Shown here: in pieces, positions 23,119 through 27,211 of the stretch | How the letters are laid out: each line of letters opens with the position of its first letter | Numbering within the stretch: the first letter of the stretch is position 1 | Made by a program: the position numbers and the translations under genes | The notes under the pieces: generated by a model | Told to the model about the DNA's origin: nothing | Database searches by the model: none | What the model saw: only the letters and a program-made list of their open reading frames with translations | IMG/VR virus record: IMGVR_UViG_3300046010_002437 | Span: 1 to 33,009 of that record | Length of the DNA: 33,009 nt | Reading direction: 5' to 3' (one strand) | DNA from: a virus

Positions 23119-25464
23119 TTATCTGTTTTTAAATATTACAAATCTTCCTTTATGATTCTTTCCTTTCTCCAGTTCCCATTCTTTGTATTTAGCGTATTCA
23201 GCAATCCATCTTGCAAATCTCTGAGGATTCATATCTTTATATCCATTATATTCATTCTGGAATTGGTTAAATAATTCATTATTATAATATGATAATTCAG
23301 TTGTAAATTGGTTATCTTGTGAGAAATCAAAGAAATCTTGAGATGTTGCCTGAATAAATCTCTTACTATCTGCATTGATACTGATTGACTTGGTTAATCC
23401 ATTTCTCAAAAATAGCTGTAAGTTCTTAATCATGTAATTATCAAATCTCGACCAATCATCTTTGGACCATTGATCAAATAACAACTTACCATATTCTTTT
23501 AATGGTGAGTTATTAGCATTAAAATATTGATAGAATTCTATCTCATGCCTTCTCCTGTCATGTGATCCTCCAGCTCCTGATATCACATAATTGGTGGTGA
23601 TAACAATCTTTGGTGATCTATTGAATGGTATAAAAACCTCATCCTTATTCTTTCTATTTACTGTGATTCCTTCAGATACAATCATGAATAATTGCTCAAA
23701 ATCAAAGTTCTTTTTTACATCATCAAATGCCAGTATCTGAGTATCTAAGTTTACTCTTTGATATAAGAACTCAGACTTACTTGGATTGAATGATTTACCA
23801 TCAATTTTTACTGTCTTTCTAAGATAACCAACAGCTGTAAGCATCAAAGATTTACCACTTCCACCATTAGGATTTTCATCAATCTCTTGATCATTGAATA
23901 TAATTGCTTTTTGATTAGTCTTATCCTTAAAGCTATGCACTAAATAACCAAGAGTTGACTCAAGACTGGCAATTCTATTCTGGTCATTATTACTCACTTT
24001 GTGGACCAGGTCTCTGAAATCATTATCAAAGTCAACAACAAGATTGAAATCTCTATCAATGATCTGATTTTCCCAAATATAACCATCAACATCAATATAA
24101 GATAATAATTCTGTTGAATCTCTCTTTATCTTAACAACTCCATTACGATAAGGAATAAAGCTTGTATCTTCAATATCCTGAAGCATCTTAAGATAGATTG
24201 AATCAATCATATTTAAGTGATTCTCTGAGAATAGATACGTTGACTTTGAGCAGAAATTCCATACATTGATATGACCTTTATCAATTAAATAATTCAATAC
24301 AAAATCTTTAATCTGATCAACTGATGACAGCTTAACCTTATTCTCAATGACTCTGACAAATGTTGGCTTTTCAGCATTCTCTGGATAGAACTTATTGAAT
24401 CCATTTTTTACTAAGAATTGAGAGTATTTTAATGGCTCAATAACAACAACCTCACTATCTTTCTTTTGAATGACTGTCCAGAATATATCATCAGCATTGG
24501 TTGCATTGTCTTTGATATCATTTAGTATCTCATCAGAGATATTATGTTGTTTTTTAATTTCATCTTCATTGACTCCATTCTTAAGCTTAAGTTTTACTCT
24601 ATTAATAGTTGATCTATCTTCAAAGTATTTTGAGTTAAAGCTGCTCTTTCTATATGCTGATTTTATAGTATTAAGCATCTCTTGATGGCTGAATGAACTT
24701 CCAGTAATATAGCTAGAATACAAGTGATGCTCTGCAATATCTTGACTGATTCCATAATCACATAAACAGCAAGCAATCTCAAATATAAATTGATTACGAC
24801 TACCCTCAACAAACTGATTCTTAAAATCAAACTTCTCTATGAGCTCAATTATCTTAGCCTCATCATTAAGAATACAAACTGGAGGCCTCTCAATATATTG
24901 AAATCCTTTATCTTCTGATATTCCTTCAAAGACTTGACAAAATTCATTGTAATAAATATTCGGATCATAAGATTCAAAACATACTCTTGAGACATCTTGA
25001 TTCTTTCTATCAAAATAATCTGACTTAAAATAATCAGCATAAGCTATGAATCTTCTCTTATGTTCAGATGCTGTTGATTTTGGTATTCTTATGACTGCCT
25101 TCCATCCTTTCCCTCCTGGTGACATAAACACAATCATCACATAAGGATCATTAATAAGACGTTGTCTCTCAGCTTCCATGATTTTATCTGTTGGATAACC
25201 ATCAAAATCAAGAATACAAAGTCCAGAATGCTCAACCAATCCATTAGCGTTCCTTTCAGTGAAAGTACCATTGAACATAATTGCATAAAGTTTATTCTTT
25301 GCTTGATCATATTCTGGTTGACCTTTACTCATTGTTCTAATGATCTCAATTTTCTTGATTAAGTCATTAGTTCCTCTCCTAATTCTTTCAACTACTTCTG
25401 GAATTGATAAAGAATATGGAGTCTCTTTTGTGCTAAACAGCGATTTGAATACTGATATTTTCAT
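23119..25464 (-). CDS. Primase-helicase (BT4734-like domain plus SF3 helicase)
   Basis: I place the start at 25464 (MKISVFKSLFSTKE), giving 781 aa; the 30 codons before it in frame lie in the structured leader. Residues about 55-180 match the BT4734/VirE-N-like region with LCILDFDG (82-89) and FMSPGGKGWKAVIRI (113-127), probably a primase-polymerase fold. Residues about 500-680 form a superfamily 3 helicase: Walker A GGSGKS (534-539), Walker B ILAFDDV (577-583), motif C KIVITTNY (619-626) and basic DRRRH (636-640) as arginine finger. It should open the origin and prime replication by the host polymerase. Its promoter and leader are described separately. Confidence 0.9.
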   Translation of the reverse strand: MKISVFKSLFSTKETPYSLSIPEVVERIRRGTNDLIKKIEIIRTMSKGQPEYDQAKNKLYAIMFNGTFTERNANGLVEHSGLCILDFDGYPTDKIMEAERQRLINDPYVMIVFMSPGGKGWKAVIRIPKSTASEHKRRFIAYADYFKSDYFDRKNQDVSRVCFESYDPNIYYNEFCQVFEGISEDKGFQYIERPPVCILNDEAKIIELIEKFDFKNQFVEGSRNQFIFEIACCLCDYGISQDIAEHHLYSSYITGSSFSHQEMLNTIKSAYRKSSFNSKYFEDRSTINRVKLKLKNGVNEDEIKKQHNISDEILNDIKDNATNADDIFWTVIQKKDSEVVVIEPLKYSQFLVKNGFNKFYPENAEKPTFVRVIENKVKLSSVDQIKDFVLNYLIDKGHINVWNFCSKSTYLFSENHLNMIDSIYLKMLQDIEDTSFIPYRNGVVKIKRDSTELLSYIDVDGYIWENQIIDRDFNLVVDFDNDFRDLVHKVSNNDQNRIASLESTLGYLVHSFKDKTNQKAIIFNDQEIDENPNGGSGKSLMLTAVGYLRKTVKIDGKSFNPSKSEFLYQRVNLDTQILAFDDVKKNFDFEQLFMIVSEGITVNRKNKDEVFIPFNRSPKIVITTNYVISGAGGSHDRRRHEIEFYQYFNANNSPLKEYGKLLFDQWSKDDWSRFDNYMIKNLQLFLRNGLTKSISINADSKRFIQATSQDFFDFSQDNQFTTELSYYNNELFNQFQNEYNGYKDMNPQRFARWIAEYAKYKEWELEKGKNHKGRFVIFKNR

Positions 25465-25478
25465 ATTTATGTGTTTTA

Positions 25479-25549
25479 TACTGTGTAAAAAAAAAAAGGA
25501 GGAAAGGACACAGTAACCTTTTACAGGGCAGCTAACCGCAAACCTCCTA
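25479..25549 (-). promoter_or_regulatory. Structured leader RNA with terminator-like end (attenuator candidate)
   Basis: Read on the minus strand, a leader starting near 25547 can fold into three stems: P1 AGGAGG/CCTCCT closing the structure (25543-25548 with 25497-25502), P2 GCGG/CTGC with loop TTAG (25528-25539), and P3 AAAGG/CCTTT (25503-25507 with 25517-25521). Eleven T follow P1, as in an intrinsic terminator. A competing pairing exists: TACTGTGT in the P3 loop (25508-25515) is complementary over 8 bases to ACACAGTA after the T run (25479-25486). That could act as a pseudoknot or an alternative fold freeing the primase start. I recognise no known riboswitch class. Confidence 0.5.
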
Positions 25550-25551
25550 TG

Positions 25552-25582
25552 CAAATTTAAATATAATTTTCAATTCTGCAAA
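25552..25582 (-). promoter_or_regulatory. Promoter of the primase-helicase gene
   Basis: TTTG (25582-25579), 19 bases, TAAATTTG (25559-25552) on the minus strand is the best Bacteroidota-type promoter in the window. Transcription would start near 25547-25545, at the first stem of the leader. A CGTGACA box touches its upstream end. Confidence 0.6.
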
Positions 25583-25584
25583 AA

Positions 25585-25675
25585 CGTGACAAACATTCCA
25601 AGTTTAGGACAGGTTTAAAACCACTTGTCACGCCTATAAACCTTACTGGTATTGACTTTCAGTAAAAACGTGACA
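25585..25675. repeat. Three CGTGACA boxes: iterons or operators
   Basis: CGTGACA occurs at 25585-25591 and 25669-25675 (direct, both within AAAAACGTGACA) and inverted as TGTCACG at 25626-25632. Centres are 41 and 43 bp apart, close to four helical turns. The block lies between the DnaA-IV-like gene and the primase promoter. It may be the replication origin, the operator of the primase, or both. Confidence 0.55.
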
Positions 25676-25703
25676 GGTGGACAAGCATTTTTATTGGGAT
25701 CCC

Positions 25704-27143: not shown

Positions 27144-27172
27144 AAAAAAAGGGAATGAAATTAATCACTCCC
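27144..27172 (-). terminator. Strong intrinsic terminator at the end of the late operon
   Basis: The minus strand reads GGGAGTGA, a 6-base loop, TCATTCCC, then seven T. The stem is 8 bp with one G-T pair. It separates the late/lysis genes from the early genes. Confidence 0.85.
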
Positions 27173-27211
27173 CTTCTCTGGTTAAACCTTAAACTAAACA
27201 GATATGCATTT

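Follow-up and report, generated by a model that had tools for sequence, protein, structure and literature searches.

Among translational riboswitches, the preQ1-I and SAM-II classes are H-type pseudoknots, and phages have the c4 antisense RNA, which carries short segments complementary to its own operon. The c4 RNA of phages P1 and P7 is catalogued as Rfam RF01695 (listed in PMC2864571). In satellite phage P4, the CI RNA pairs with seqA and seqC in the transcript of its own replication operon, and in Gifsy-1, the short, terminated RNA IsrK (of the orf45-anrP system) activates the longer mRNA made by read-through from its own promoter (PMC4825925). Here, we describe a leader RNA that precedes the primase-helicase gene of a Bacteroidota-type phage, within a stretch of DNA of 33,009 nucleotides (the window), and we ask how it relates to these systems. 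Its architecture is well supported by comparison of sequences, it probably controls the timing of replication-protein production, and it appears to represent an uncatalogued class of phage RNA dedicated to replication genes. We found no earlier description of such a leader in the literature searched, a collection that includes only a minority of subscription journals.

A first-pass annotation of the window, made from the letters alone, had proposed a fold of three stems closed by AGGAGG/CCTCCT, followed by eleven T between a promoter and the primase ATG, with eight bases of the P3 loop complementary to the bases just past the T run. All three stems (P1, P2, and P3) and the T run were located on the minus strand (Table 1), the first T of the run (25497) doubling as the last base of P1, and the complementarity of TACTGTGT to ACACAGTA (site 1) was confirmed. 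Absent from that annotation was site 2, a second loop-complementary copy near the ATG. The annotation had also called the promoter a good one; a promoter is present, but it is of the Bacteroidota primary-sigma type (TTTG, a spacing of 19 nt, and TAAATTTG; consensus in PMC7366714), and a scan for sigma-70-like promoters, a candidate that we rejected, yielded only chance-level sites. The gene that follows encodes a protein with BT4734-like_N and PriCT_1 domains and a weak match to DUF5906.

Table 1. Features of the leader and its gene in the window.
Feature	Position	Strand	Basis
-33 TTTG, Bacteroidota-type promoter	25579..25582	-	Sequence; consensus from PMC7366714
-7 box TAAATTTG; expected start of transcription close to P1	25552..25559	-	Box before P1 in 48/51 relatives
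P1 5' strand AGGAGG	25543..25548	-	Compensatory changes, 4/6 P1 pairs
P2 hairpin GCGG-TTAG-CTGC; strands 25539-25536/25531-25528	25528..25539	-	Compensatory changes in relatives
Conserved core GTAAAAGGTT: junction, P3 5' strand, and loop start	25515..25524	-	Identical in all instances, in part through the search pattern
P3 loop segment TACTGTGT, partner of site 1 or site 2	25508..25515	-	Complementarity
P3 3' strand CCTTT, partner AAAGG 25521-25517	25503..25507	-	Alignment
P1 3' strand CCTCCT	25497..25502	-	Covariation
U-run (11 U), probable intrinsic terminator	25487..25497	-	Enriched (44/53 relatives), absent in some
Site 1 ACACAGTA, 8 bp complement of P3 loop	25479..25486	-	Complementarity
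Site 2 ACACA, 5 bp, end 5 nt before ATG	25470..25474	-	Loop complementarity
Primase-helicase gene, ATG at 25464; presumed regulated gene	23119..25464	-	Domain matches

What singles such an element out? Folding energy does not: compared with shuffles, the window shows no excess stability (z = +0.15, +0.61, and -1.14 for different cuts), and its minimum-energy fold keeps P1 and loses P2 and P3, the consensus three-way junction lying 0.8 kcal/mol above that minimum with the pseudoknot uncounted. It is the comparison with relatives for which we judge the element to be real. A covariance model, R1, built from 14 sequences with all window-type leaders excluded, matches the window at 25548-25489(-) with 43.7 bits and E=6.5e-10 in 540 kb (E-values of home-made covariance models being rough). 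At gathering score, Rfam 15 gives 0 matches in the window and in 21 loci with relatives or related leaders, and at a permissive E<=5, it gives nothing relevant, in keeping with the first-pass annotation, which had recognised no known riboswitch family.

Primase homologues in IMG/VR provided 80 loci, and the window-type leader is present in those nearest by primase sequence (L001-L006, L008, and L009), the whole group L001-L009 having the primase ATG and an MKISVF N-terminus in common. Pattern scans put the leader in ~60 distinct contexts, and there are at least 53 distinct relatives, every one in phage contigs; these are metagenomic contigs only, with related sequences, and the counts are not of independent events. 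No cultured phage with a window-type leader was found, and in ~800 Bacteroidota genomes and 12 named phage records, the matches that we inspected resembled chance matches to coding sequence or to plain terminators. The promoter of the relatives is TAnnTTTG-like: a TAnnTT.. box precedes P1 in 48 of the 51 examined for it, generally at a distance of 1-4 nt. Each phage contig has one copy of the leader (a second, weak match in one contig was judged to be chance), and the genes directly downstream encode primase-helicases, Lin1244_N-type replication initiation proteins, DnaD-like helicase loaders, and DUF6291 proteins, which are related to replisome organisers; a few of the downstream proteins belong to no named family or are apparently fused to an endonuclease domain.

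In 43 distinct aligned sequences, 92% of the cells pair, and 99 cells are altered on both sides compared with 31 +/- 5 in shuffles; the covariation score of 0.298 exceeds those of shuffles (0.110 +/- 0.010) and of slid structures (no higher than 0.137). Compensatory changes fall in four of the six P1 pairs and all five aligned P2 pairs, and P3 is almost invariant. The P2 of window-type leaders is counted as gaps because it falls in an alignment insert, and its 4 bp were judged by a separate parse. The first-pass annotation had staked its case on conservation and compensatory change in related phages, and both were found. In the window itself, as in the class of leader described here (class A), a P1-P2-P3 junction with the GUAAAAGG core stands before a replication gene.

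A constant core inside a variable scaffold could also belong to a ligand-sensing riboswitch, with the junction and core GUAAAAGGUU binding a small molecule or ion that would stabilise the site-1 pseudoknot or the terminator; a pseudoknot in the expression platform and the occurrence of one element before unrelated replication genes would both fit. However, the search pattern (GTAAAAGGTT..CCTTTCC) itself accounts for part of the near-invariance of P3 and the core, even if loci found by protein alone retain the core (L470-L472 have CCTTA instead of CCTTT), and no Rfam riboswitch matches, no metabolite is suggested by the downstream genes, and the element was not found among the inspected matches in those ~800 Bacteroidota genomes. 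We regard a riboswitch as rather unlikely. The same near-invariant P3 and core could instead be recognised by some common protein, of phage or host, that acts on termination or translation, and phages offer a precedent in T4 gp32 and RegA, which bind their mRNAs. Yet the genes downstream are of unrelated families, so simple autoregulation cannot explain all of them, and protein binding alone would leave the two loop-complementary sites unaccounted for; we think it very improbable.

Those two sites are the center of our argument. Between relatives, the P3 loop turns over completely (ACTGTGT, GACACTG, TCTCGTT, CTTGCGT, TCACGTT, TGCAGGA, TCGTGTTT, and others), and with each new loop comes a matching change in the stretch beyond the linker. 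The pseudoknot-type pairing of the loop, which the annotation had offered as one option, persists in relatives with unrelated loop sequences. Across 43 distinct sequences, the score of the best duplex is 18.7 compared with 10-10.5 in three kinds of control, and the second site scores 13.9 compared with 8.3-8.7, no control reaching either observed score. In a second test, with one sequence for each of nine loop clusters and 2000 swaps, the best duplex scores 19.3 (9.8 +/- 0.6 in swaps), the second site scores 13.7 (7.9 +/- 0.4), and the last 14 nt before the ATG score 13.7 (8.6 +/- 0.5), with 0/2000 swaps reaching the observed value in each case.

The end of site 2 lies 0-5 nt before the ATG in 51/53 relatives, and four of them (L220, L210, L223, and L246) have a weak or misplaced site 2; the window has site 1 together with a site 2 at the ATG. 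Because the two sites overlap in the loop bases that they require in every one of the 53, their pairings are mutually exclusive. Site 1 is the stronger partner in 49/53, with a mean duplex energy of -8.9 kcal/mol compared with -4.6 kcal/mol for site 2. The geometry suggests an H-type pseudoknot in which P3 would be stem 1 and loop:site 1 would be stem 2, set beside P3 after a short loop 1 (UU), with the P1 3' strand and linker as loop 3. A tether test of linker length against P1 length gave no support, the correlation being negative because both share the same span.

Toward the edges of the loop duplexes, replacement by G-U pairs is not significantly more frequent than expected (16 compared with 12.2), so wobble adds nothing to the case for RNA-level pairing, which is made by covariation and position. 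That result would also suit a reading in which the repeats are DNA operator half-sites that resemble loop:target pairing, as would the existence of three related copies, one of them inverted. However, the inverted copy always falls exactly within the P3 loop, P1 and P2 covary as RNA helices, and upstream of the promoter, the motif is not clearly enriched (10 compared with 6.8 +/- 2.5). We give DNA operators hardly any credence as the explanation of the loop and its sites.

The DNA upstream of the leader has features of its own. Directly upstream of the leader and primase is a Bac_DnaA_C helix-turn-helix gene (PF08299; 25704-26126, minus strand), whose product is a candidate origin-binding protein. 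Upstream of the leader promoter, at 25575-25680, the window has TGTCACG/GTGACA motifs (two TCACGTTTTT and one GTGACA), and GTCAC/GTCAT repeats likewise precede the promoter in most relatives. Beside the Bac_DnaA_C gene, these motifs are possible operators or origin repeats.

Is the leader, then, an attenuator, as the first-pass annotation had it? In the window, and in 44 of 53 relatives, a stem and then a U-run stand between promoter and gene, as in an intrinsic-terminator attenuator; 44 linkers contain an unbroken run of at least five T compared with 0.35 expected from neighbouring composition, from which we conclude that termination is probably selected for. However, the U-run is not in all members. 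An instance list that required a T-run was circular and was given up, and dropping the filter revealed eight distinct members (L168, L179, L186, L198, L215, L223, L240, and L246) that have no U-run and keep both sites, so termination cannot be the essential step. As regards a mutually exclusive antiterminator that would dissolve the terminator stem, site 1 pairs with the loop and not with a P1 strand, and it is transcribed only after the U-run. What stands of the attenuator is an enriched U-run and not the core of the element; attenuation is at most one layer. Every member retains the loop together with site 1 and another complementary site at the start codon. We take this to point to control of translation, to which termination is a frequent addition.

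We would therefore picture a two-site leader, a reading from sequence to which we give roughly even credence: the loop's choice of partner would govern translation, and the terminator would add a layer in most members. The RNA would begin at the transcription start of the phage replication genes; its three-way junction, with the core GUAAAAGGUU, is seen by comparison. In the stronger, default state, the loop would pair with site 1 and leave the start codon free; pairing with site 2 instead would block the landing site of the 30S subunit and lead to less replication protein. Site 2 might alternatively be held in trans by the loop of another copy or by a terminated short RNA. P1 and the U-run probably terminate part of the transcripts in most members, the window included, and the predicted product is a ~60-nt RNA that has the loop, lacks both sites, and could pair with its cognate mRNA. 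The assignment of ON and OFF to the two pairings is a guess on our part. In Flavobacterium, ribosomes make no use of Shine-Dalgarno sequences, which the mRNAs lack, and initiation depends partly on RNA structure around the start codon (PMC6847099); site 2 is thus naturally placed for control. Counting against the two-site reading are the enrichment of the U-run, for which translation control alone has no use, the window's site 2 of only 5 bp, the weak or misplaced site 2 of the four relatives named above, and the lack of a significant excess of G-U pairs.

The enriched U-run brings us to a trans-acting short RNA. Suppose that the ~60-nt terminated RNA pairs through its loop with sites 1 and 2 of the read-through mRNA; replication or immunity would then be controlled by dose across copies of the same phage, much as with P4 CI RNA or IsrK, and loop and sites would co-diversify as a specificity. 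An RNA structured from about its first bases and two targets before a replication gene, as in P4 (PMC4825925), would fit, and so would the pair L167 and L190, in which a near-equal scaffold carries a wholly different loop and both sites. So, too, would the exchange of whole leader cassettes between phages. The leader of L203, both sites included, is 100% identical to that of L181, whereas the upstream flank is 51% identical, and the gene after codon 10 is 55% identical; the L203 gene is instead 90% identical to that of L190, whose leader has a different loop and sites. L203 is, in other words, a chimera with an L181-like leader and first codons, an L190-like gene body, and an upstream flank nearer L190, in which the leader and both sites moved as one unit; this points to cassette exchange and counts in favour of the two-site leader as well. 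Against a trans-acting RNA are the genuine members without a U-run that keep both sites and the loops of L165, L187, and L218, which persist while P2 changes, so the loop is not always the fastest-changing part. We hold this explanation to be possible, with less confidence than the two-site leader.

Leaders of another kind precede many of the related primases. In L010-L062, where upstream sequence is available (e.g., L031:1500-1600 and L010:380-470), the primase follows a class B leader with a 5' segment (ATGGCGC, GATGCAG), an A-rich spacer, and a terminator hairpin with a GAGTA/GAAA internal loop, the apical loop being complementary to the RNA's own 5' segment in a pseudoknot. Class B leaders show strong covariation and no Rfam match; a leader peptide was considered and rejected because its reading frame is not conserved (sequences read by eye). 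A scan of viral contigs with the class B core pattern gave only chance matches. Most of L067-L080, which have related primases, have the same kind of promoter near the ATG and no leader.

When the downstream gene families were searched by protein for further leaders, many others were found, with terminator hairpins whose apical loops pair with the RNA 5' end. With a model, R3, built from the primase-linked class B leaders, further leaders of the class are recovered ahead of other primases (E down to 5e-10) and, with weak matches, ahead of DUF6291 genes (E ~4e-4 to 4e-3). In a set of 30 upstream regions that have a terminator of this type, the longest match of the loop to its own 5' region averages 5.1 compared with 3.8 +/- 0.15 for foreign regions, and it is at least 6 in 16 of them. 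Several loci may be mentioned separately. At ~300-391 in L413-L421, class B stands before DUF6291 genes with the pairings GCTGGGA/TCCCAGC and GGTCGGA/TCCGACC, and in the 100 nt before the ATG of L427, L428, L438-L446, L504, and L506 are more terminator hairpins, whose apical loops have a 7-8-nt perfect complement near the leader 5' end and are hypervariable between phages. The window also has, at 27144-27179 (minus strand), a strong terminator-like hairpin, GGGGAGTG..CATTCCCTTTTTTT, which matches the class B model weakly and not significantly (E 0.07).

We might go further and imagine that phages of Bacteroidota have a circuit resembling those of copy number or immunity, in which a short terminated RNA with a hypervariable loop acts on two sites of its own mRNA and class B does the same job; this is a tentative idea, and we think it more probably wrong than right. 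If it were true, a self RNA would throttle the synthesis of replication protein, specificity would diverge either as loop and sites change in concert or as whole cassettes are exchanged, and a topologically different family (loop against own 5' end) would serve the same end in sister phages. There is also a hint that these phages commonly use RNA to control the initiation of replication. Whatever the circuit, one loop with two competing sites, one of them at the start codon, gives a directly testable prediction in a phylum without Shine-Dalgarno initiation, and concrete sequences and a covariance structure are now at hand for Flavobacterium reporters.

How does this leader compare with the systems with which we began? 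It resembles preQ1-I and SAM-II in that a hairpin loop pairs with a downstream segment and the expression platform is at the translation start, but it has a three-way junction, two alternative partners, a hypervariable pairing sequence, and no Rfam match. To c4, it has no covariance match, and structure and gene context differ. It resembles IsrK in having one promoter for a terminated short RNA (predicted here) and a read-through mRNA, the short RNA being able to bind the longer one and to alter its translation; the IsrK pairing is of ~30 nt and activating, whereas here it is 5-11 bp, at two sites, in another gene context, and known from sequence. The P4 CI RNA is processed from its transcript, involves premature termination, and has one target upstream and one downstream, whereas here both sites are downstream, with one of them at the start codon, the RNA folds differently, and the hosts lie outside the enterobacteria. 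Because sequence, fold, and the arrangement of sites differ, we do not claim membership in either the P4 CI or the IsrK family. What the window's leader has in common with P4 CI, in a different arrangement, is two complementary sites in its own transcript before replication genes: each is a leader RNA in a phage replication operon, with a segment complementary to two sites of the same transcript, which controls replication genes in P4 and is predicted to do so here.
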